Assembly: GCA_023383815.1 (NCBI GenBank)
Contig: JAHDYG010000005.1
Location: 62,001-126,000, forward strand
Origin: Rhodocyclaceae bacterium
Lineage (GTDB): Bacteria; Pseudomonadota; Gammaproteobacteria; Burkholderiales; Rhodocyclaceae
DNA length: 64,000 bases
Reading direction: 5' to 3'
The position numbers and the translations under genes are program-made. This document shows positions 7,942 through 20,443 of this stretch, one piece after another; positions within the stretch are counted from its first letter, which is position 1, and each line of letters starts with the position of its first letter. The notes under the pieces were generated by a model that was not told where the DNA came from, did no database searches, and saw only the letters and a program-made list of their open reading frames with translations.

Positions 7942-8003
7942 GCGGCTTCAAGACCGAGCACCCGCCTGACTGCGCCCCCGTCTCTACTGCCTCGCGCCAC
8001 CGG

Positions 8004-8621
8004 TCAGCGCGATGTGCCGGCGAGCAGCGCGCCGGCCGACACGAACAGCCCACCGAACACCCGGTTCTGGGCGCGAATCATGCGCGGACTGTGGAACCAG
8101 GCCCTGAAACGCCCGGCCGCGAGCGCGTAGATCGACATCACGATGATGTCGGTCACCACCATCGTCGCTCCGATGATCAGAAACTGCGGAAGCTGCGGAT
8201 GTTCCGGACGGACGAACTGCGGCACGAGGGCGACGATGAAGAGGATCGCCTTCGGATTGGTCAGATTCACGAACAGCCCCTGCAGATAGAATCCCCGCCC
8301 ACCGCCGCGCAACAACGCACGCTCGTCGACCTCCTCGATCGGGGCACGCCACTTCAGGATCCCGAGCCAGACGAGATACCCGGCCCCGACGATCTTGAGC
8401 ATGAGAAAGGCCGTCGAAGAGGCTGCCAGCACCGCCCCGAGCCCGAGCGCGACGACTGCAAGCTGGACGAGCAGCGCGCTCTCCAGGCCAAGGATGGCCC
8501 GCAGCGCGATCCGGTAGCCGTGGCGAAGGCCGGTTGCGATCGAAAGCACCGCGCCGGGACCGGGCGTCACCGCGATCACGATCGAGGCCACCAGAAAAGC
8601 CAGCCAGACGTTCCAGCTCAT
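8004..8621 (-). CDS. LysE family translocator
   Basis: AVTPGPGAVLSIATGLRHGYR; NLTNPKAILFIVALVPQF. Confidence 0.9.
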   Translation of the reverse strand: MSWNVWLAFLVASIVIAVTPGPGAVLSIATGLRHGYRIALRAILGLESALLVQLAVVALGLGAVLAASSTAFLMLKIVGAGYLVWLGILKWRAPIEEVDERALLRGGGRGFYLQGLFVNLTNPKAILFIVALVPQFVRPEHPQLPQFLIIGATMVVTDIIVMSIYALAAGRFRAWFHSPRMIRAQNRVFGGLFVSAGALLAGTSR

Positions 8622-8649
8622 TGCACCCCCCGCATCGGCCACCCTGGCC

Positions 8650-9456
8650 TCAACCGAAAACCGTGTGCAGCATCTTCGCACACAACAGCAGCAGCACTCC
8701 GGCAAAGACCCGCTTGAGCGTTGCCACCGGCAGCCGGTGGGCAAGGCGCGCGCCGAGCGGCGCGGTGACCATGCTCACCGCACTGACGAGCACGAGCGCC
8801 GGAAGATAGACGAACCCGAGGCTCAGCGCCGGCATGCCGGCCCCCCCCCAGCCGTTCACAAGGTAACCGACCGTGCCCGCCAGCGCGATCGGCAGGCCGA
8901 TCGCCGCCGAAGTGCCGATCGCGTGCTGGACCCTGACGTTGCACCAGGTCATGAACGGCACCGACAGGGAGCCTCCGCCGATCGCCACCAGCGCCGAAAC
9001 CCCGCCGATACCGGCCCCGACGGCACTCATGCCGATCGCGCCGGGCAGTTCGCGTGACGGTTTCGGCTTGAGGTTCGCCATCATCTGCAGCGATACGTAG
9101 GCCATGAAGCAGGCAAAGAAGATCGCCAGCGGGCCGGATGGGACCCGCGCCGCGACGAAGGTCGCCGCAAACGTGCCGGCCAGGATTCCGGGCGTGATCG
9201 CGCGCACGATGTCCCAGCGCACGGCGCCGTGGGCATGATGCGCGCGCAGGCTCGAAACCGAAGTCAGCACGATCGCGGCCATGGAGGTTCCGAGCGCGAG
9301 ATGGACCGACTTTTCGCCCGGAAAGCCCTGCGCAACGAACAGCGTGGTCAGCATCGGCACCATGATGCCGCCGCCGCCCAGACCAAGCAGTCCCGCAAAA
9401 AAGCCGACAAAGGCACCCAGCAGCGGGTAGCTCAGCCACCACAGGTCGAACGTCAT
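8650..9456 (-). CDS. TSUP (TauE/SafE) family sulfite exporter-like membrane protein
   Basis: GFFAGLLGLGGGGIMVPML and GAGIGGVSALVAIGGGSLSVPFM duplicated motifs. Confidence 0.88.
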   Translation of the reverse strand: MTFDLWWLSYPLLGAFVGFFAGLLGLGGGGIMVPMLTTLFVAQGFPGEKSVHLALGTSMAAIVLTSVSSLRAHHAHGAVRWDIVRAITPGILAGTFAATFVAARVPSGPLAIFFACFMAYVSLQMMANLKPKPSRELPGAIGMSAVGAGIGGVSALVAIGGGSLSVPFMTWCNVRVQHAIGTSAAIGLPIALAGTVGYLVNGWGGAGMPALSLGFVYLPALVLVSAVSMVTAPLGARLAHRLPVATLKRVFAGVLLLLCAKMLHTVFG

Positions 9457-9923
9457 TGCTTGAGTCCCATGAGTTCCTGCACGATGAATCGCCATTGCGC
9501 GGGCTCGACCGGCGTGATCGAAAGCCGGTTGCCGCGCGCAAGCACCTGCATGTCCGCAAGCTCCGGCGCCGAACGCAGTTCGGCGAGCGGCACGAAACGG
9601 GTCCTGCGCACGAAGCGTACGTCCACATTGAGCCAGCGCGGCGTCTCGGGCCGTGCGCGCGGATCGAAGTAGGGGCTGGACGGATCGAACTGCGTCGCAT
9701 CCGGATACGCCTCGCTCGCCACCCTTGCGATCCCGGCAATGCCCGGTTCGGTGCCGCCCGAATGATAGAAGAAAACGGGATCGCCGACCCGTATCCGGTC
9801 GCGCATGAAATTGCGCGCCTGGTAATTGCGCACGCCGAACCACGGCACGGTCTGGTCAGGCCTTCGCTCCAGATCCTCGATGGAACACTCCTGTGGTTCG
9901 GATTTCATCAGCCAGTAGCGCAT
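9453..9923 (-). CDS. EVE domain protein
   Basis: MRYWLMKSEPQECSIEDL...WFGVRNYQARNFMRDRIRVGDPVFFYHS. Confidence 0.93.
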   Translation of the reverse strand: MRYWLMKSEPQECSIEDLERRPDQTVPWFGVRNYQARNFMRDRIRVGDPVFFYHSGGTEPGIAGIARVASEAYPDATQFDPSSPYFDPRARPETPRWLNVDVRFVRRTRFVPLAELRSAPELADMQVLARGNRLSITPVEPAQWRFIVQELMGLKQ

Positions 9924-9969
9924 CGTGGTCTCCCGCTGTTCAAAACACGCCTTGACGCATCGAGCATGT

Positions 9970-9984
9970 GTTACAGTCCGTAAC
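9970..9984. promoter_or_regulatory. GTTAC-N5-GTAAC operator upstream of the CbrX/CbrA-like genes
   Basis: GTTACAGTCCGTAAC, extended to TGTTAC-N5-GTAACA. Confidence 0.6.
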
Positions 9985-10014
9985 ACCACAGCCCCCCCGG
10001 AAGGAAGGTTGCTC

Positions 10015-10176
10015 ATGGACAAGATCGTGATCCTGTTCCTGTTTGGCATCCTGCTTTTCGCTTCGCCTCTGGTCTACTGGTGGGCATCGCCAGCCTTCCC
10101 ATGGTATGCACCCTACCTGCTGTGGGCGATCCTGATCGGACTCATCGTGCTCGTGCAAAGACACCATGAGCACTGA
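10015..10176 (+). CDS. Small membrane protein overlapping the sensor kinase start (CbrX-like position)
   Basis: MDKIVILFLFGILLFASPLVYWWASPAFPWYAPYLLWAILIGLIVLVQRHHEH; two hydrophobic segments; 11-nt overlap with the next gene. Confidence 0.75.
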   Translation: MDKIVILFLFGILLFASPLVYWWASPAFPWYAPYLLWAILIGLIVLVQRHHEH

Positions 10177-13129
10177 GATCGGCATCCTGTATGCAGTCGG
10201 CGTGGCCTATCTGGGGCTGCTGTTCTTCATCGCCCATGCAACCGAAAACCGCTGGCTGCCCGACCGGCTGGTACGCCACCCGCTGGTCTATGCGCTCGGA
10301 CTCGGCGTCTATGCGACTTCGTGGAGCTTTTTTGGCAGTGTCGGCTTTGCGCAGACGCAGGGCTACAATTTTCTCACGATCTATCTCGGCGTCACGCTCG
10401 CCTTCATCCTGACACCGCTGCTGCTCGCTCCGCTGCTGCGACTGGTGCGGGACCACCAGCTCACCTCGCTCGCCGACCTCTTCGCGTTCCGTTACCCAAG
10501 CCCATGGACCGGCGCTCTGGTGACGCTCTTCATGCTCTGTGGCGTCTTGCCCTATATCGCGCTGCAGATCAAAGCCGTGACGGAGGCGGTGACCGTGATC
10601 ACTCAGGAGGCGCCGCCACACCTCCTGGCGCTCGCTTTCTGCGGCACACTGGGCCTGTTCGCAATCCTCTTCGGCGCACGCCACATCACCCCGCACGAGA
10701 AGCACGAGGGCCTGGTGGTCGCGATCGCCTTCGAATCGGCGATCAAGCTGCTGGCCCTGATCACCGTCGGCATATTCGCGCTGTTCGGGGTGTTCGGCGG
10801 ACTCGACGGCCTCGATCAATGGCTCGCCCGGCATCCCGAAGCGATCACTGCCCTTTATGCCCCGGTTCGCGACGGGCCGTGGTTCACCTTCATCGTCCTC
10901 GCCTTCGCGGCCGGCTTCCTGCTGCCGCGCCAGTTCCACATGCTGTTCGTCGAGAACATGGACGCGCGCGCGCTGAAGACCGCAGCCTGGGCGTTCCCGC
11001 TCTTCCTGTTGCTGCTCAATGTGCCGATTCCACTGATCCTGTGGGCGGGCTCTGCCGCCGCAGTGAGCACCGCACCCGATTATTTCGTCCTCGGACTGGC
11101 GGTCGAACGGGGGAGCAAGTGGCTCACGCTGATGACCTTCGTCGGCGGGGTGTCGGCGGCCAGCGCGATGATGATCGTGACGACGCTTGCACTGGCGAGC
11201 ATGTGCCTCAATCACCTGATCCTGCCGGCACGCTACCAGCAGCATTCCTTCCCGCGCGAGAACCTCTACGCCTGGCTCCTGTGGGGACGGCGGATGCTGA
11301 TTCTCGTCATCATCGGGCTCGGCTACGGGTTTTACCTGCTGCTGCAGGTCCACCAGGGCCTGGTCCAGATCGGCCTGATCTCGTTCGTGGCCGTTGCCCA
11401 GTTCCTTCCAGGCGTCGCCGGCATCCTGGCCTGGCCGCGCGCAACGCGGATCGGGTTTGTTTCCGGGCTGGCCGGCGGCATCGCCGTCTGGATCTTCGCC
11501 CTCATCCTGCCCTTGCTGCATCGGTCGGGATTGCCCGTCACCGACTTCAGCCTCCAGCAATGGGCCGGCGCCGGCGAGCAGGATCGATGGGCCTTCGCGA
11601 CCTTCTGGTCGCTCACGGTGAACGGGCTCCTGTTCGTCGCCGGATCGTTGCTGAGCCGCCCGACCCCGGCCGAGGCCCAGGCGAACCTGGCGATCGCGCG
11701 CCGCGACGCGGTCGACATTCCGCCGCGCATGCTCGAGGCACGGTCGGTGGAGGAGTTCATGGAGCGCCTGTCCCAGGCTGTCGGCCCGCAAACGGCAGCG
11801 CTCGAGCTCGGCCGGGCCCTCGACGACCTCGACATGCGGCACGACGAGACACGCCCGGCCGACCTGGGCCGCCTGCGCGAGCGCCTGGAGCGCAACCTGT
11901 CCGGCCTCATCGGCCCGCTGCTTTCGCGCATGATCGTCGACAACCGGCTTCAGGTCGCCCCGCACGCCCGCCTCGCACTGGCCGACAGCCTGCGCTTCGT
12001 CGAAGCGCAGCTCGAACGCTCGCACGGCCGCCTCGAAGGGCTCGCCGCCGAACTCGACACCTTGCGTCGCTATCACCGCAAGGTGCTGCATGAACTGCCG
12101 CTCGGAGTGTGTTCGCTGTCACCCGACGCCGTCGTGCTGTTCTGGAACAGTGCAATGGCCGGCATTTCGGGAATGCCCAGCCATGAAGCGGTGGGCCGCA
12201 GCCTGAACGAGCTCGCCCCCCCCTGGAAGGGGATTCTGCGCGCCTTCGTCGACGGCGACGAACGTCATCTGTACAAGCTCCAGTGCCTCGTCAAGGGCCG
12301 CAACCGATGGATCAACCTGCACAAGGCAACCATCGAGAACAGCACCGGAGATTCCCCGCCGGCTTCGGCTGAAGCCGCCGGCACCGTCATTCTGGTCGAG
12401 GACCTGACCGAACTGCACATGCTCGAAAGCGAGGTTGCTCATAACGATCGTCTGGCCTCGATCGGCCGGCTCGCGGCAGGCGTCGCGCACGAGATCGGCA
12501 ATCCGCTGACGGGCATCGCCTCGCTGGCCCAGAACCTTCACTTCGAGACCGACCCGAAGGAGCAGGAACTGGCGATCGCACAGATCCTGAAGCAGACCAA
12601 ACGCATCAGCAACATCGTCCAGTCGCTGATCACCTTCAGCCACGCCGGCGAGACCCAGCAAGCCCGGCGCGAGGCGGTTGCGCTGCACGAATGCGTGCAC
12701 GAGGCGATCCACCTCGTCCGGCTGGCCGACTCCGCGCGCCAGGTCCTGTGCGTCAATGCCGTGCCCGAGCATCTCATGGTCAGCGGCAACGCCCAGCGCC
12801 TGCTGCAGGTCTTCGTGAATCTCCTGAGCAACGCGACCCAGGCCTCGGAGGCCGGCAGCCGCGTCATCGTGCACGGGCGCGGCGACGACACGCTCATCGA
12901 GATCGTGGTCGAGGACGAGGGCAGTGGAATCGCCGAATCGAACCTCGACCGCATCTTCGAGCCATTTTTCACGACCAAGCCGGCCGGTGAGGGCACCGGG
13001 CTCGGGCTGTCGGTCGTCTACAGCATCATCGAGGATCACGGCGGGGTGGTCCAGGCCGAGAACCGGGAGCCACGCGGCACCCGCTTCACGATCCGGCTGC
13101 CCGCCCTTCAGGAGGAAAGCACTGCATGA
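10166..13129 (+). CDS. Histidine kinase with N-terminal SLC5/SSS transporter domain, CbrA-like
   Basis: 13-TM-like SSS region followed by PAS and HATPase: RLAAGVAHEIGNPLTGIASLAQNL, NLLSNATQASE, GEGTGLGLSVVYSI. Confidence 0.9.
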   Translation: MSTEIGILYAVGVAYLGLLFFIAHATENRWLPDRLVRHPLVYALGLGVYATSWSFFGSVGFAQTQGYNFLTIYLGVTLAFILTPLLLAPLLRLVRDHQLTSLADLFAFRYPSPWTGALVTLFMLCGVLPYIALQIKAVTEAVTVITQEAPPHLLALAFCGTLGLFAILFGARHITPHEKHEGLVVAIAFESAIKLLALITVGIFALFGVFGGLDGLDQWLARHPEAITALYAPVRDGPWFTFIVLAFAAGFLLPRQFHMLFVENMDARALKTAAWAFPLFLLLLNVPIPLILWAGSAAAVSTAPDYFVLGLAVERGSKWLTLMTFVGGVSAASAMMIVTTLALASMCLNHLILPARYQQHSFPRENLYAWLLWGRRMLILVIIGLGYGFYLLLQVHQGLVQIGLISFVAVAQFLPGVAGILAWPRATRIGFVSGLAGGIAVWIFALILPLLHRSGLPVTDFSLQQWAGAGEQDRWAFATFWSLTVNGLLFVAGSLLSRPTPAEAQANLAIARRDAVDIPPRMLEARSVEEFMERLSQAVGPQTAALELGRALDDLDMRHDETRPADLGRLRERLERNLSGLIGPLLSRMIVDNRLQVAPHARLALADSLRFVEAQLERSHGRLEGLAAELDTLRRYHRKVLHELPLGVCSLSPDAVVLFWNSAMAGISGMPSHEAVGRSLNELAPPWKGILRAFVDGDERHLYKLQCLVKGRNRWINLHKATIENSTGDSPPASAEAAGTVILVEDLTELHMLESEVAHNDRLASIGRLAAGVAHEIGNPLTGIASLAQNLHFETDPKEQELAIAQILKQTKRISNIVQSLITFSHAGETQQARREAVALHECVHEAIHLVRLADSARQVLCVNAVPEHLMVSGNAQRLLQVFVNLLSNATQASEAGSRVIVHGRGDDTLIEIVVEDEGSGIAESNLDRIFEPFFTTKPAGEGTGLGLSVVYSIIEDHGGVVQAENREPRGTRFTIRLPALQEESTA

Positions 13130-14472
13130 ACCGCATACTCATCGTCGACGACGAGGACGTCATCCGGCGTGCCCTGCGTCGCCTGCTCGAGCGCGAAGGC
13201 TACCGCGTGGCCGAAGCCACGAGCCTCGCCGAGGCACGCCAGTCGTGCGCCAGCCAGCAGTCGGATCTGGCAATCTGCGACCTGCGCCTGCCCGATGGCG
13301 AAGGCATCCAGCTCGCCGCGGCATGCCCGGATACGCCGGTGCTGATCATGACGAGCTTCGCGAGCGTCAATTCCGCGGTCGAGGCAATGAAGGCCGGTGC
13401 GGTCGACTACATCGCCAAGCCCTTCGACCACGAGGAGATGCTGCTGACGATTGCGCGCATCCTCAAGCAGCGCCGGCTCGAACGCGAGAACCAGCACCTG
13501 AGGAGGGATCTCGCACGCGTGTATCCGATCGACGGCATGGTCGGACGCTCGGCCGGAATGAACCAGGTGTGCGAAACGGTCAAGAAGGTCGCCCCGACGG
13601 ACACGACCGTCCTGATCCGGGGCGAGTCGGGCACCGGCAAGGAGCTCGTCGCACGCGCGATTCACGCCAAGAGCCCGCGTGCCGGCGTTCCGCTGGTCAC
13701 CGTCAATTGTGCGAGCATTCCGGAAGGACTGATCGAATCGGAACTGTTCGGCCATGAGAAGGGCGCGTTCACCGGCGCCACGACCGGGCACCGGGGGCTG
13801 GTCGAAGCCGCCGACGGCGGAACGCTCTTTCTCGATGAAATCGGCGAGCTCACGCCCGCCGCACAGTCCCGCCTGCTGCGTGTGCTCCAGGATGGCGAAA
13901 TCCGGCGGGTCGGCGCGACGACGAGCCGCACGGTCGACGTGCGCCTCGTCGCCGCCACCCACCGCGACCTCGAACAGATGGTGCGCGACGGCGACTTCCG
14001 TGAGGATCTCTACTACCGGCTGGAAGTCATGGAGATTCATCTGCCGCCGCTGCGCGAGCGCGGCGAGGACATCCCGCTACTCGCCGAGCATCTGCTCGAC
14101 GAAGCCTGCACCCGCATGAAACGTCCACGCCTGGCCTTCTCCGCAGCGGCAACGCAGGCCCTGCTGCGCCACCGCTGGCCCGGCAACGTGCGGGAACTGA
14201 AGAACGCGATCGAGCGCGCGGTGATCCTGGCCGACGAGTGCATCACCCCGGAACTGCTGGCGCTGCATACGCCGCGCGAAGCCGCACCGGAGCGACGCGG
14301 GATGAGCATGGACGACTACTTCCGCCGCTTCGTGATCGAGCACCAGGACACGCTCACCGAAACCGAGATTGCGCGCCGCCTCGGCATCAGCCGCAAGGCA
14401 TTGTGGGAGCGGCGTTCGCGCATGGGGCTGCCGCGACCGCGCGCCCAGGGTGCACGCGCGCCCGTCGAGTAA
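13126..14472 (+). CDS. Sigma54-dependent response regulator, NtrC/CbrB-like
   Basis: REC domain, RGESGTGKELVARAIH, ELFGHEKGAFTGA, C-terminal Fis-type HTH (TETEIARRLGISRKALWERR). Confidence 0.93.
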   Translation: MNRILIVDDEDVIRRALRRLLEREGYRVAEATSLAEARQSCASQQSDLAICDLRLPDGEGIQLAAACPDTPVLIMTSFASVNSAVEAMKAGAVDYIAKPFDHEEMLLTIARILKQRRLERENQHLRRDLARVYPIDGMVGRSAGMNQVCETVKKVAPTDTTVLIRGESGTGKELVARAIHAKSPRAGVPLVTVNCASIPEGLIESELFGHEKGAFTGATTGHRGLVEAADGGTLFLDEIGELTPAAQSRLLRVLQDGEIRRVGATTSRTVDVRLVAATHRDLEQMVRDGDFREDLYYRLEVMEIHLPPLRERGEDIPLLAEHLLDEACTRMKRPRLAFSAAATQALLRHRWPGNVRELKNAIERAVILADECITPELLALHTPREAAPERRGMSMDDYFRRFVIEHQDTLTETEIARRLGISRKALWERRSRMGLPRPRAQGARAPVE

Positions 14473-14482
14473 CCCGGAAAGC

Positions 14483-14516
14483 GTTACCCACGGTAACAGG
14501 CGTTACCTTGGGTAAC
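14483..14516. promoter_or_regulatory. Tandem 15-bp palindromic activator sites (candidate UAS)
   Basis: GTTACC-CAC-GGTAAC (14483-14497) and GTTACC-TTG-GGTAAC (14502-14516), centres 19 bp apart. Confidence 0.75.
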
Positions 14517-14568
14517 GCACGCTCGTCCGCCACTCCCCTCCGTCCCGGTCGCGACGGGCGCGTGCAAA

Positions 14569-14584
14569 TGGCACATCGCTTGCT
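14569..14584 (+). promoter_or_regulatory. Sigma54 (-24/-12) promoter for the DUF4212-symporter operon
   Basis: TGGCAC-ATCGC-TTGCT matches TGGCAC-N5-TTGCW exactly; 52 bp after the UAS pair, 54 bp before the start codon. Confidence 0.82.
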
Positions 14585-14638
14585 ATGTACGAAATGCGCC
14601 GCACCACAAGAGCGTTCCATACCAAAGGAGGAGCTTCC

Positions 14639-14905
14639 GTGACTCAACTGACACAAGAGCAGCGCGCGTTGCACTGGCAACGCACGCGAACCTTGATGAT
14701 CGTGCATCTGACGATCTGGTTCATCTTTTCATACGTCGTGCATTGGTTTGCCGTTGAACTGAACGCCATCAAGTTCTTCGGCTGGCCGCTCGGCTACTAC
14801 ATGTCCGCACAGGGCTCGCTGGTCGTGTTCGTGGTCCAGCTCTTCATGTTCAGCAAACAACAGCACGCCATCGACGTCGAGTTCGGCGTGGCTGAAGAAG
14901 AATAG
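14639..14905 (+). CDS. DUF4212 domain protein, sodium symporter small subunit
   Basis: GTG start after AAAGGAGGA; MTQLTQEQRALHWQRTRTLMIVHLTIWFIFSYVVHWFA. Confidence 0.88.
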   Translation: MTQLTQEQRALHWQRTRTLMIVHLTIWFIFSYVVHWFAVELNAIKFFGWPLGYYMSAQGSLVVFVVQLFMFSKQQHAIDVEFGVAEEE

Positions 14906-14917
14906 GGAGGACACGAC

Positions 14918-16759
14918 ATGGGCATGCAATGGGAAGGGAAATCCTTCATCGACAATCTGCCGAAGATCTATGGCGTGTACACCGGGGGCTTTCTCGCGTT
15001 CTTCGCGCTGATGGCGATCCTGGAACAGATGGGCGTGGGCGCCGACATGATCGGCATCCTGTTCGTGGGCTTCACGATCGTGATCTACGCCTTCATCGGT
15101 GTGCTGTCACGAACGATGGCGGTGGATGCCTACTACGTCGCGGGGCGCAGCGTACCACCCGTGTTCAACGGCATGGCAACGGCGGCCGACTGGATGTCCG
15201 GTGCCTCCTTCGTGGCGATGGCGGGCGGCATCTTCATGGCCGGCCACGGCTACATGGCCTTCATCGTCGGCTGGACGGGCGGCTACATCCTCGTGGCGAC
15301 CCTGATGGCGCCGTATCTGCGCAAGTTCGGCTGCTACACCGTGCCCGACTTCGTCGGCACGCGCTATGGCGGCAAGCTGGCGCGCTTCTGCGCAATCGTG
15401 GTACTGATCGTCGCTTCGTTCACGTACGTGACCGCGCAGATCACCGCGACCGGCACGATTGCCGCCCGCGCACTGCAGATTCCGTTCGAGGCCGGCGTCT
15501 GGTTCGGTCTCGCCGGCATCCTCGTCTGCTCGATGCTCGGCGGCATGCGCGCAGTGACCTGGACCCAGGTCGCGCAGTACATCGTGCTGATCGTCGCCTA
15601 CCTGATCCCGATCTTCTGGATGTCGATCGCGCAGGGCTTCGGGCCCTTCCCGCAGCTCGCCTACGGCGGCGCTGTCGAGCGCATCATGGAACTCGAACCG
15701 GTGATCGGCGTCGGCACGAAGGCCGTCGAGGCGGTTCCCGGCCTCGGAGTGCTGACCACCCTGCACGCCACGCCGAAGGAAGGCGCGATCGCCGCATGGC
15801 AGTTCGTGACGCTGGTCGCGTGCATGATGATCGGAACCGCCTCGCTGCCGCACATCCTGATGCGCTACTTCACGACGCCGTCGGTGCGGGATGCACGCAC
15901 GTCGGTCGCCTGGTCGCTGTTCTTCATCTTCCTGCTGTACTTCTCGGCCCCGGCGCTGGCGACGTTCAGCAAGCTGCAGATGATCGACCCGACGCTGCCG
16001 ACCGCGATCATCGGCAAGTCGATCGACGAGGTCATGGCGCTCAACTGGATCCAGAAATGGGGCGCGATCGGGCTGCTGGCCGTGAAGGACGGCAACGCAG
16101 ACGGCATCCTGCAGATCAACGAGTTCTTCCTCAACCCGGACATCATCGTACTCGCAACGCCTGAAATGGCCGGCCTGCCGTACGTGATCTCGGGCCTCGT
16201 CGCTGCCGGCGGCATGGCCGCCGCGATGTCCACGGCGGACGGACTGCTGCTCGCGATGGCCAACGCCCTGTCGCACGATCTGTACTACAAGATCATCGAC
16301 CCGAAGGCGGAAACCAAGAAGCGCCTGCTCACCGCCCGCATCCTGCTGGTCGTGATCGGTGCGGCCGGCGCGCTGGTGGCGAGCATGAAGCTCACCGGCA
16401 TTCTCGGTGCGGTGGCCTGGGCCTTCTGCTTTGCGATGTCCGGGCTTTTCTTCCCGCTCGTGCTCGGGGTGTGGTGGAAGCGCGCAAACCGCCCCGGTGC
16501 GATCGCCGGGATGGTCGGCGGGCTCGGCGTGGGCTGGTGGTATCTGCTGGCCGTGCGCAACCCGAAGGAGTGGTACGGTCTTGCCGAACCGTGGCTGGGC
16601 CTGAACGACCTGCGCTTCGGCATCGTCGGCATCGTCGCGAGCCTCGTGTGCATGGTCGTGGTAACCTTGCTCACGGCCGCGCCGGACGAGGAAACCCAGC
16701 GCATGGTGGACGAGGTCCGCATCCCGCGGGGTGACACGATCATCGGCGCAAAGGCCTGA
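14918..16759 (+). CDS. Sodium:solute symporter, ActP-like / VC_2705-type large subunit
   Basis: SSS family: DAYYVAGRSVPPVFNGMATAADWMSGASF; directly downstream of DUF4212. Confidence 0.9.
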   Translation: MGMQWEGKSFIDNLPKIYGVYTGGFLAFFALMAILEQMGVGADMIGILFVGFTIVIYAFIGVLSRTMAVDAYYVAGRSVPPVFNGMATAADWMSGASFVAMAGGIFMAGHGYMAFIVGWTGGYILVATLMAPYLRKFGCYTVPDFVGTRYGGKLARFCAIVVLIVASFTYVTAQITATGTIAARALQIPFEAGVWFGLAGILVCSMLGGMRAVTWTQVAQYIVLIVAYLIPIFWMSIAQGFGPFPQLAYGGAVERIMELEPVIGVGTKAVEAVPGLGVLTTLHATPKEGAIAAWQFVTLVACMMIGTASLPHILMRYFTTPSVRDARTSVAWSLFFIFLLYFSAPALATFSKLQMIDPTLPTAIIGKSIDEVMALNWIQKWGAIGLLAVKDGNADGILQINEFFLNPDIIVLATPEMAGLPYVISGLVAAGGMAAAMSTADGLLLAMANALSHDLYYKIIDPKAETKKRLLTARILLVVIGAAGALVASMKLTGILGAVAWAFCFAMSGLFFPLVLGVWWKRANRPGAIAGMVGGLGVGWWYLLAVRNPKEWYGLAEPWLGLNDLRFGIVGIVASLVCMVVVTLLTAAPDEETQRMVDEVRIPRGDTIIGAKA

Positions 16760-16800
16760 TCCCGGAGAGCAGACGATTCGTCACACGTTCACGTGACAGG

Positions 16801-16835
16801 ACCGGGGCGGAAGGATTCGCCCCGGTTTTCTTTTT
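16801..16835 (+). terminator. Rho-independent terminator
   Basis: ACCGGGGCG-gaaggatt-CGCCCCGGT followed by TTTCTTTTT. Confidence 0.85.
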
Positions 16836-16854
16836 ATGGAGCAAGACGAGCGAG

Positions 16855-17214
16855 ATGATGATCGAAGGCATCCCCGGCTGGGCCATCGCGATCGACTACC
16901 TGCTGGGCATGATCATGTGGACCCTGATCGGTCGCTTCGGCATGCGGCTGTTCCTGCCCGAAGAAAGCAAGTTCTTCTTCAGCCGCATCTTCATCCGGCT
17001 GACCAATCCACTGCTGAAGCTGTTCGCACCGATCACGCCCGGATTCCTCGTACCGGCGCTGATCCCGCTGTACGTGGCGTGGTTCTTCTACATGGTCCGC
17101 TTCTACCTGATGCCCTGGGCTCTGGGCTACTCGGTCATGGGCATGCTGTCCTTTCCGCTCGAAGGCGAGATCGCCCGCGGCATCTATCACCTGGGAAAGA
17201 TGATCGTCAATTGA
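16855..17214 (+). CDS. Conserved membrane protein of unknown function
   Basis: 119 aa, several hydrophobic segments; downstream of the symporter. Confidence 0.75.
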   Translation: MMIEGIPGWAIAIDYLLGMIMWTLIGRFGMRLFLPEESKFFFSRIFIRLTNPLLKLFAPITPGFLVPALIPLYVAWFFYMVRFYLMPWALGYSVMGMLSFPLEGEIARGIYHLGKMIVN

Positions 17215-17926
17215 GCGGCTGCAGGAGCGCCTGCACATCGAGACAGGCGCGCAGGTCCCGCCGCACCTCCTGCCAGCGAAAGCGCACCGAGTTGAGCACG
17301 ATCTCTTCGTCCAGTTCCTTGAGCTGGTCGAGCACCGGCGACCACCGGACCACCGAAGCTGGACTGTCTGTGAACGCCCATTCACCGTCCTCGAACCGGG
17401 CGAGATCGACGGCCGCGACCCGTTCGCGCAGACGCTGTGCGTGCTCGGGCCAGGCACCTCCTGCATCTTGGGGCGTGCCGGTGCGGGCGAGGATCTCGCC
17501 CACCAGCCCTTCGATCAAGGAGCGCACCGCTTCATGGCTGCCACCACCCTTGCAGAGCAGGCCTCCGGCGTGAATGGATAGATCACCCAGACAATCGAGC
17601 CAGATGTGCCACTTCGCGACGTTGATCCCCTCGACGAACGGATCGTCGTCAAACAGCTCGGGATAGCGCATGCCGGCGCGCGTGCGCAGGTAGCCATAGA
17701 GCGAGGTCTGGGCCACGAAACTCGCCCGCGTATCGAGAAAACCCGAAAGCCCGGCCAGGCTCGTGATTGGCTCCAGGCGCTTGCGTCCGCGCCCGATTCC
17801 GAAGTAGTCGGAAATCATCCTCAGCCAGTCGCCTGGCCGCAGCGACAGCCCCAATCCGGCCCCCCCGCCTTTCGTTGCGGTGCGCCGGACGACTCTGGGT
17901 TTGAAAAACTCCTGCGGTTCGGTCAC
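17207..17926 (-). CDS. Conserved hypothetical protein
   Basis: Full-length ORF (MTEPQEFFKPRVVRRTATKGG...), convergent with the preceding gene; no family recognised. Confidence 0.65.
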   Translation of the reverse strand: MTEPQEFFKPRVVRRTATKGGGAGLGLSLRPGDWLRMISDYFGIGRGRKRLEPITSLAGLSGFLDTRASFVAQTSLYGYLRTRAGMRYPELFDDDPFVEGINVAKWHIWLDCLGDLSIHAGGLLCKGGGSHEAVRSLIEGLVGEILARTGTPQDAGGAWPEHAQRLRERVAAVDLARFEDGEWAFTDSPASVVRWSPVLDQLKELDEEIVLNSVRFRWQEVRRDLRACLDVQALLQPLN

Positions 17927-18109
17927 GTTCTTCGTCTCCCCTGCCCGTCATGGATGGCTGCCCGGCCCTTGCAGGGCGCGACAGCAATGCGGATTCATTA
18001 TAGGGTCGCCCGAAGCAGGACTGGGCACGACGTCATCCGGGCACCGGAACGTCCAGCGTGTACGATGCCGGCGCACGCCTGATCCACCGCGCACATGCCC
18101 CCAACCGTT

Positions 18110-18143
18110 GTTACGGTTCGTAGCGCTCGCTACGCCGGGTAAC
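18110..18143. promoter_or_regulatory. Second tandem UAS pair of the same motif
   Basis: GTTAC-GGTTC-GTAGC (18110-18124) and GCTAC-GCCGG-GTAAC (18129-18143), centres 19 bp apart, as in the 14483-14516 pair. Confidence 0.7.
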
Positions 18144-18206
18144 AACCGCGCGCCCATCCCTGCGCGCGCACGGGCGCAATCCACCGTACCCACGAGCAAT
18201 CGCGCT

Positions 18207-18222
18207 CGGCACAGCGATTGCT
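18207..18222 (+). promoter_or_regulatory. Sigma54 (-24/-12) promoter
   Basis: CGGCAC-AGCGA-TTGCT (GG at -24, GC at -12, correct spacing), 63 bp after the UAS pair and 33 bp before the ORF. Confidence 0.7.
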
Positions 18223-18255
18223 TGGCGTGGACGTCCGTGACCACCCGCCACGATC

Positions 18256-18714
18256 ATGAGGCAGACGACCCCGAGTGCCCGACCGTCAGTGCGCCCGACG
18301 CGCCTGCTCGCAGCGACGATCGAATTCCTGCGCCGCAACCACCCGTTTTCAGACATGGAATCCGGACACCTGGAGTTTCTCGCCAAACGCCTCCACACGC
18401 GCTACTGCCCCGCCGGATCGAGGATCGAATGCGGAGATGAAATCGGAGGTGCGTGCCTGCTCATCGTCAAACAGGGCATCGTCGAAATCATCCGGGCCAC
18501 ACGACGGTCTTCGCGGCTGCTTCGCCCCGGCGACAGCTTCGTCATTCCGCCTTCCGGATTGCGCAACTCGGAAGGCGACGGGGTGGAGCATGTGGCGGGA
18601 GAGGATACCTTCTGCCTCGAAGTGGACCACGACGCACTGGCAGAACTGGCCAGGAAATCGGACGCGCTCAGGGATTTTCTCACTGCAGCCCAGGTACGCC
18701 ACCCCGAGGGCTGA
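18256..18714 (+). CDS. Stand-alone cyclic-nucleotide-binding domain protein
   Basis: HPFSDMESGHLEFLAKRLHTRYCPAGSRIECGDEIGGACLLIVKQGIVEI...LLRPGDSF. Confidence 0.75.
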   Translation: MRQTTPSARPSVRPTRLLAATIEFLRRNHPFSDMESGHLEFLAKRLHTRYCPAGSRIECGDEIGGACLLIVKQGIVEIIRATRRSSRLLRPGDSFVIPPSGLRNSEGDGVEHVAGEDTFCLEVDHDALAELARKSDALRDFLTAAQVRHPEG

Positions 18715-18719
18715 ATGCA

Positions 18720-18753
18720 GACGGGGTGCGGAACCCAGGTTCCGCACCCCGTC
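18720..18753. terminator. Perfect 16-bp stem hairpin between convergent CNB gene and 6S RNA
   Basis: GACGGGGTGCGGAACC-CA-GGTTCCGCACCCCGTC; no clear T-tract. Confidence 0.55.
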
Positions 18754-18760
18754 ATTCTGG

Positions 18761-18938
18761 CCCCCCGCCTGTGCCGTTTCCACCGGGCATCCTGAACCTG
18801 TGGTTCAGGGTGGTCGCTTTCCTGCCGCTTCAGGCTCACCCGTCAAGGGGCGTGCACACCAGCGGGTCGATGGTCCGCAACCGTGTCTCTCGACATTGGT
18901 CCAAGGAATCTACGATTTCAACGAACACGGCAGGGGAT
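18761..18938 (-). ncRNA. ssrS: 6S RNA
   Basis: Downstream of zapA on the same strand; closing stem CCCCTGCCGTGTTCG...GAAACGGCACAGGCGGGG and internal CCTGAACCACAGGTTCAGG resembling E. coli CTTGAACCAAGGGTTCAAGG. Confidence 0.8.
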
Positions 18939-18957
18939 TGACCGCTTCGCCTACACG

Positions 18958-19275
18958 CTAGAACAACCTGTCCTGCTGGGCGAGCACGCCATCGAGCCGC
19001 GCACTCATGAGCCCGATTCTACGCTTCAGTGCGGGCAAGTCAAACCCGCCCGACCGCTGCGACGAAAGATACTCATGCGTAATATTCAGGGCGGTCATCA
19101 ATGCCAGCTTCTCGCCGCTCACGCCCGTTCTGGCGCCCAGTTCCCGCAGCTTTCCATCCAGGAAGGCCACTGCTTCGAGCAGCCCTTCGCGCTCGTCCGG
19201 CTTGCAGGCGACGCGGTATTCCTTGCCCAGCAGCGCAATGTCGAGCGACTCGCTTTCCACGTCCGAACCTCGCAT
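18958..19275 (-). CDS. zapA: Cell division protein ZapA
   Basis: LDIALLGKEYRVACKPDEREGLLEAVAFLDGKLRELG...LALMTALNITHEYL. Confidence 0.92.
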   Translation of the reverse strand: MRGSDVESESLDIALLGKEYRVACKPDEREGLLEAVAFLDGKLRELGARTGVSGEKLALMTALNITHEYLSSQRSGGFDLPALKRRIGLMSARLDGVLAQQDRLF

Positions 19276-19276
19276 T

Positions 19277-19471
19277 TCAGGATTCCGGCAAGTTCTGCAA
19301 AAGCGACTCGAGCTTTTCGCTCGCCAGCCGCACCTTGCCCAGCAACTGACGGTTCTCGGCTTCGAGCGCAGCCACGCGCGTACGCAAGCTGCGCATCTCG
19401 GCCTTGCCCGACTCGTAGAGCGCAACCAGCTGCTCGAGCTGGTTCTCAAGGTGCGTGATTTCAGCGTCCAT
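19277..19471 (-). CDS. TIGR02449-type / ZapB-like coiled-coil protein
   Basis: MDAEITHLENQLEQLVALYESGKAEMRSLRTRVAALEAENRQLLGKVRLASEKLESLLQNLPES, upstream of zapA. Confidence 0.8.
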   Translation of the reverse strand: MDAEITHLENQLEQLVALYESGKAEMRSLRTRVAALEAENRQLLGKVRLASEKLESLLQNLPES

Positions 19472-19564
19472 GTCGCCGATGGTAGAGCCGCCCTCGGTCG
19501 GGGTCAAGACAGGCGCATCCCGGTGCGTCCAGCACGCGACAGGGTGGCACTTGGGGGCGCCGGA

Positions 19565-20443
19565 TCACTTTCGCAGCGCGGTCAGTTCGCTCAGATCGTC
19601 GGCGATCTCATTGCGCAGGTCCTCGACCTCATCCTCGCCCAGTCCGAGCCAGGCACAGGCCGGTTCGCGCAAGACCTCCCATTCGCTCTCGCTCGGAAAT
19701 CCGAGGAAGTCCGCTGCCAGCTTCTCGGCCAGCACCGATACACACACGAGCGCGCGGACCGGCTCCGGAAGATCCGGGAGCGAGCCCCGCACGGCATCCG
19801 GGTCGTGATGGACCTTGATCGCCTCGACGACGAGTTGCGGGAGCTGCCACGTGCGGGCGAGCAAAGCGCCGACGACGACATGGCTGGTCGCGTGCGCCTC
19901 GAACTCGACATCGACCATCGGACTCGTCGACTCGTTCGCCTTGGCGAGCGTGGCCTTGTAGTCCGGGAACCGCTGCATCAGGATCGGGATCCCGCAGTCG
20001 TGGAAGAGTCCGAAGGTGTAGGCATCATCCTGCCCCACCCCGGGCAGGCGCTTTGCCATGCGCGAGCAGATCGCCGCGTGCAGGCTGGAGCGCTCCCAGA
20101 AGCGCTCCATGCTCACGCCGGGCGGCTTGAGCGCCTGCTGCAGCGCGAGCCCGGTGACGATGCTCGCGATGTTCCTGAGCCCCAGGACGGACACCGCCTG
20201 CTGGACCGAGGACACCTTGCGCTGGAGGCCGAAGAAGGGGGAGTTGGCGACTTTCATGACCGCCGCCGCAAGGCCGACATCGGCCCCGAGCAAGCGCCCG
20301 ATGCGCACGAAATCGGCGTCCTCCCGCCGGATCTCCGACATCAGGGAACTCACGACGGCCGGACACGGTGGAATGCTGACGCTCTTGAGCAACGCCGACA
20401 GCTCTTCCTCGCCGGACTCGATGCTGCGTGTGGATTCAGCCAT
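19565..20443 (-). CDS. HDOD domain protein
   Basis: IPPCPAVVSSLMSEIRREDADFVRIGRLLGADVGLAAAVMKVANSPFFG. Confidence 0.9.
   Translation of the reverse strand: MAESTRSIESGEEELSALLKSVSIPPCPAVVSSLMSEIRREDADFVRIGRLLGADVGLAAAVMKVANSPFFGLQRKVSSVQQAVSVLGLRNIASIVTGLALQQALKPPGVSMERFWERSSLHAAICSRMAKRLPGVGQDDAYTFGLFHDCGIPILMQRFPDYKATLAKANESTSPMVDVEFEAHATSHVVVGALLARTWQLPQLVVEAIKVHHDPDAVRGSLPDLPEPVRALVCVSVLAEKLAADFLGFPSESEWEVLREPACAWLGLGEDEVEDLRNEIADDLSELTALRK

Follow-up and report, generated by a model that had tools for sequence, protein, structure and literature searches.

Two palindromes and a sigma54 box sit between a gene for a CbrB-like regulator and a DUF4212/SSS symporter operon in the window (the whole 64,000-nucleotide stretch of Rhodocyclaceae DNA that was analysed), and it is highly likely that the palindromes form a tandem operator of the adjoining regulator, which would drive the symporter operon through sigma54 as part of a local regulon. 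The mechanism put forward by the initial annotation, in which the regulator acts on the symporter promoter, is, as far as the sequence can tell, very probably right. Published accounts regard CbrAB as a system unique to the Pseudomonadaceae (PMC8871633, PMC6296734), and among the literature matches listed none deals with CbrAB outside that family; the broader result is that the cbrX-cbrA-cbrB type of architecture is present in some 30 other families, together with a definable operator and neighbouring acetate genes.

Putative operator 1, GTTACCCACGGTAAC (14483–14497, + strand), is an exact GTTACC-N3-GGTAAC palindrome that begins 10 bp beyond the regulator stop codon at 14472, and putative operator 2, GTTACCTTGGGTAAC (14502–14516, +), is a second exact palindrome, 19 bp away from centre to centre. 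They are followed by a predicted sigma54 −24/−12 promoter of the GG-N10-GC type, TGGCACATCGCTTGCT (14569–14584, +), which lies at the same distance from operator 2 as in relatives and is the sole exact match in the window to the consensus TGGCAC-N5-TTGCW, with 0.02 expected. The initial annotation had reported both the pair of exact 15-bp palindromes with 19-bp centre spacing and the consensus TGGCAC-N5-TTGCT, and both are found as it described them. When up to two mismatches are allowed, the palindrome has four matches in the window against 0.39 expected, a number reached by none of 100 shuffles, and at zero or one mismatch the whole 3.81-Mb genome has no copies besides those at 14483 and 14502. 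Genome-wide there are three occurrences of the core GTTAC-N5-GTAAC (14483, 14502 and 9970), all of them at this locus, so that a random genomic distribution, the outcome which the annotation had named as speaking against its reading, is clearly not the case. A genome scan for the tandem 34-bp layout at up to three mismatches returned two places, 14483 and 18110, both in the window, while the reversed-pattern control returned none. The arrangement is not due to chance.

Upstream of the palindromes lies a cbrX-cbrA-cbrB-like operon, which is preceded by a single putative operator with the exact GTTAC-N5-GTAAC core, GTTACAGTCCGTAAC (9970–9984, +), probably serving in autoregulation of the operon. 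Its first gene (10015–10176, +) encodes a CbrX-like membrane peptide of 53 aa that matches chain X of PDB 10ED (P. putida CbrX, E=4.9e-9) and overlaps the ATG of the kinase gene by 11 nt. The CbrA-like sensor kinase (10166–13129, +; 987 aa) has the architecture SLC5-STAC-PAS-HisKA-HATPase, matching PDB 10ED chain A (P. putida CbrA, E=5.8e-161) over residues 8–593, the SLC5-STAC part, and Pfam PAS, HisKA and HATPase_c, with REC absent. The CbrB-like response regulator (13126–14472, +; 448 aa) is of the REC-AAA+(GAFTGA)-HTH type, with Pfam REC and Sigma54_activat (3e-73) matches, the GAFTGA motif and a Pseudomonas-like recognition helix. Thus the CbrB-like sigma54 activator gene that the initial annotation had placed directly upstream of the palindromes, and its pairing with an SSS-domain kinase, both stand. 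The features which that annotation named hold, although it had overlooked the 9970 site, the cbrX-like ORF, and a further tandem pair with a promoter at 18110–18222. There, a degenerate operator 1′, GTTACGGTTCGTAGC (18110–18124, +), and a degenerate operator 2′, GCTACGCCGGGTAAC (18129–18143, +), again 19 bp apart, stand before a second sigma54-type promoter of the −24/−12 kind, CGGCACAGCGATTGCT (18207–18222, +), an arrangement that is also seen in two relatives (L050 and L136). This promoter precedes an ORF for a cNMP-binding-like protein of 152 aa (18256–18714, +), whose Pfam cNMP_binding match (E=0.0015) is below the cut-off, and which is related to the N-terminal region of DUF294 proteins found after the operators in relatives (34% identity over 144 aa to that of L100). 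Directly after this ORF, on the opposite strand, lies a 6S RNA (18758–18939, −; Rfam RF00013, 61.8 bits).

The symporter operon itself opens with the DUF4212 small subunit (14639–14905, +; PF13937 5.5e-24; TIGR03647 79.5 bits, cut-off 26), the GTG start of which is preceded by the ribosome-binding site AAAGGAGGAG, and continues with the large subunit of a VC_2705-family sodium/solute symporter (14918–16759, +; TIGR03648 680 bits, cut-off 321). Of the DUF4212/ActP-type operon announced by the initial annotation, the DUF4212 part is retained, and the ActP identity is rejected, the TIGR02711 score of 105 bits being below the cut-off of 1099. A 119-aa ORF with a weak, below cut-off YggT-like Pfam match (E=0.012) follows at 16855–17214 (+), and could be the third gene of the operon. 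Elsewhere in the same genome (L139, contig 43, 70000–89000), two more DUF4212 genes in opposite orientation are found beside a VC_2705-type symporter, at a locus where both the GTTAC operators and the kinase-regulator pair are absent.

The window operon shares with the CbrXAB of P. putida and P. aeruginosa the order cbrX-cbrA-cbrB with an overlapping cbrX, an SLC5-STAC-PAS-HK kinase together with a sigma54 activator, GTTAC/GTAAC half-sites, and a target promoter directly after cbrB. The HTH recognition helix around LGISRK-x-LWE is almost the same in all sequences compared, the window and Pseudomonas included, which fits the GTTAC core common to the P. putida CbrB subsites and the window operators, and the P. 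putida half-site TGTTAC/GTAACA which the initial annotation had given is the one that has been published (PMC6296734). Given this full-length homology, gene order and common HTH, the window might be supposed to encode a true CbrAB, that is, a global carbon regulator sensing histidine, with the symporter promoter as one target among many; this is nonetheless quite unlikely, since the three exact operators in the genome are all local, Rfam CrcZ has no match at 8000–20000 of the window, where 6S RNA is the only RNA match, and the histidine-contact positions are systematically different. P. putida CbrB is reported to be a monomer which recognizes three non-palindromic subsites 20–25 bp apart and needs IHF (PMC6296734), whereas the window has two full palindromes 19 bp apart, and no IHF consensus was found between operator and promoter at this locus. 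Similarly, the Pseudomonas target is the crcZ sRNA and the Pseudomonas regulon is large, whereas the predicted target in the window is a symporter operon and the regulon, judged by operator count only, is local. Because crcZ, the subsite layout and the large regulon were not encountered, the window system is regarded as a variant of CbrAB and not as CbrAB itself. The Pseudomonas-type locus L131 (genome G222) does have an Rfam CrcZ; its kinase shares 47% and its regulator 55% identity with the window counterparts.

The ligand pocket was compared at positions 51, 53, 55, 56, 74, 75, 196, 248, 251, 257 and 406 (P. putida numbering), some of the histidine contacts of CbrA being known from molecular dynamics alone, and the signal sensed by CbrA being an open question (PMC13022988). 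Relative to P. putida CbrA, the window kinase keeps Y51, W55, Y75, K196 and F406, and carries the changes S53T, A56S, C74I, F248A, S251A and H257R. The resulting string, YTWSIYKAARF, is the same almost without exception in the non-Pseudomonad members, two SLC5-domain outgroup kinases have YTWTIYKSARF, and L131, L134 and L135 have YSWA(T/Y)YKF(S/A)(H/F)F. Since the non-Pseudomonad members and the outgroup kinases share the other pattern, it is the Pseudomonas-type pocket that is the unusual one. The arginine that replaces His257 would, we infer, be well matched to a carboxylate ligand. Another SLC5-domain histidine kinase, 37% identical to that of the window, lies beside a DUF4212 operon in genome G046 (L138, 11243–14017), with no REC in its ORF and with pocket residues as in the window kinase.

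Conservation of the operator was assessed on 36 loci having both kinase and regulator, by scanning all 1024 5-mers as N5 palindromes in the 350 bp before the kinase and the 250 bp after the regulator. GTTAC was the sole recurring half-site, present upstream of the kinase at 24 of the 36 loci and downstream of the regulator at 9, against 2 for the runner-up, and no gap from 0 to 15 other than 5 exceeded one locus. The 24 loci represent about 17 GTDB families (by inspection), and kinship of the genomes alone is therefore no explanation of the recurrence. An exact operator near the kinase-regulator pair is absent in L119, L123, L132, L134 and L135. Exact copies were looked for in 15 kinase-bearing genomes, and in the majority of these they lie mostly or wholly at the kinase locus. 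With the paired motif itself as the query against 369 genomes of the class, only three were retrieved (G000, G382 and G166), all of them kinase carriers. The DUF4212 operons of relatives away from kinase-regulator loci had the site in 0 of 28 cases, including that of a genome of the same genus (G001) whose symporter is 81% identical to that of the window; this absence supports the view that the operator travels with the regulator. These data also bear on the possibility that the palindromes are bound by an unrelated transcription factor encoded elsewhere, the CbrB-like neighbour being incidental. Such a factor would be compatible with the simplicity of the half-site, which P. putida CbrB uses non-palindromically, and with the fact that binding by the CbrB-like regulator is predicted from sequence only, but it is made very unlikely by the co-occurrence of site and regulator over the 17 or so families, by the site-free DUF4212 operons that have no regulator, by the lack of further exact copies in the genome, and by a GTTAC core and recognition helix that are those of P. 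putida CbrB, or almost so.

Kinase homologues (E≤1e-120) occur in 40 of 369 genomes of the class and 27 of 349 of the phylum, and in only 1 of 400 genomes of the order, namely the window genome, to which G035 from the same family can be added. The kinase tree, which was used for placement instead of a regulator tree with NtrC outgroups, the base of which was not separated, puts the window next to sequences of the Ectothiorhodospira type, and L050 and G035 likewise (0.97). Taken together, the patchy presence in the order and this placement suggest that the kinase-regulator system was acquired horizontally in this lineage.

Tandem pairs in relatives have spacings of 19–23 bp, and the distance from operator 2 to the best downstream −24/−12 element is mostly 59–63 bp, with 69–71 bp in three cases and 83–84 bp in two. 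In the window, the distance from operator 2 to the GG of the −24 element is 61 bp for the symporter promoter, and for the promoter at 18207–18222 the corresponding distance is 72 bp, about one helical turn more. These operator-promoter distances are in helical register and would be consistent with same-face binding, although a good −24/−12 element is missing at a comparable distance from one pair (L129, at 7271). A role of the inverted repeats at the RNA level, as a terminator or attenuator behind the gene for the regulator, is hardly credible, for all that they start 10 bp past a stop codon, given that no T run follows them, that the same palindrome with its fixed 5-bp gap stands upstream of cbrX in relatives and before genes distant from the regulator, and that the distance to the sigma54 box shows helical periodicity. 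As for the single upstream site, it is situated about 20–80 bp before cbrX, often just ahead of a TG-n-TAxxxT element, a position which would fit autorepression of a sigma70 promoter. NtrC autorepresses the promoter of its own operon in this manner.

The gene that comes first behind the operators in relatives encodes a cNMP-CBS-DUF294 protein, a DUF4212 or other SSS symporter, or an acetate--CoA ligase; in L129, Acs (TIGR02188) is the first gene past the operators and the sigma54 box. An Acs gene lies downstream on the same strand within 12 kb in 22 of the 36 genomes, against about 0.15 expected on the basis of 45 matches to the Acs family across about 128 Mb, with 36 × 12 kb examined, and this linkage ties the gene cluster to acetate or a similar acid. 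By this association, the system likely controls genes for acetate or short-chain acids. The acs gene of the window genome is on contig 43 (C43), which has no exact operator copies; the acetate link is therefore made in this genome by analogy with relatives, and the regulator seems to govern the uptake arm only. An organic acid as the symporter cargo, as suggested by the initial annotation, is plausible on the same analogy.

From the computed features, namely sequence, genome-wide specificity, conservation, co-occurrence and spacing register, we infer steps of phosphorylation, binding and sigma54-dependent activation for the tandem-operator mechanism. The CbrA-like SLC5-STAC kinase, probably in complex with the CbrX-like peptide, would phosphorylate the CbrB-like regulator, which would then bind both palindromes (14483–14516) on one face of the helix, contact sigma54-RNA polymerase at 14569–14584, hydrolyse ATP and open the promoter in front of the DUF4212/VC_2705 symporter genes. 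The degenerate copy of the module at 18110–18222 would make the cNMP-domain gene a second target, and the single palindrome at the cbrX-cbrA-cbrB promoter would probably provide the autoregulation deduced above, giving a local regulon of one locus and two or three promoters. Acetate or another short-chain carboxylate would most likely be both the signal and the cargo.

Enhancers of the NtrC type consist of short inverted half-sites, paired upstream of a −24/−12 promoter. The window sites are like them in having inverted half-sites with a 5-bp gap and in standing in pairs upstream of −24/−12 elements, but differ from them in the half-site GTTAC, the dedicated kinase and the local target. With CrbS/CrbR (MxtR/ErdR), the window system has in common an SLC5-STAC kinase of a kind found in association with acs and with genes for acetate permease (PMC5715377, PMC7918813), whereas CrbS is a hybrid kinase with REC and CrbR is of the LuxR type (PMC9100948), the window kinase being non-hybrid and its regulator sigma54-dependent and NtrC-type. 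The rhizobial RpuS/R and MctS/R are also similar, in that the SLC5-domain kinase RpuS adjoins and controls an SSS monocarboxylate symporter, according to the relevant passages of PMC9100948; in those passages RpuR is a LuxR-family protein, unlike the window regulator, and a sigma54 activator and a GTTAC operator are not mentioned for either system. In terms of predicted features, the window-type system resembles CbrAB in its molecular working and CrbS/R in the genes it would control.

A wider proposal, to which we would give an even chance, is that the Gammaproteobacteria (sensu GTDB) widely carry a CbrXAB family whose signal is a short-chain carboxylate, probably acetate, and which acts through tandem GTTAC-N5-GTAAC sites and sigma54 on the genes for symporters, DUF294 proteins and Acs. 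On this view the histidine-linked, CrcZ-producing CbrAB of Pseudomonas would be a derived branch, altered in its pocket, in its operator layout and in its target alike. A family with small regulons bears on the way in which a local transporter switch could turn into a global carbon regulator, and its non-Pseudomonad members are natural variants for testing SLC5 ligand residues and the action of CbrX. For target prediction elsewhere, the operator rule would be GTTAC-N5-GTAAC pairs, 19–23 bp apart, at about 60, 70 or 83 bp from the −24 element.

Exact sites also occur elsewhere in relatives, such as on contig 3 of G121 and contigs 5, 8 and 10 of G186. On the former contig (L140), exact palindromes at 160232 and 160278, 46 bp apart and far from the kinase locus, may mark a distant target of the regulator there. 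In Ectothiorhodospira (L046–L049 and L100), a third, weaker GTTTC-N5-GGAAC-like palindrome is seen about 45 bp past the tandem operators, and might be a third subsite.
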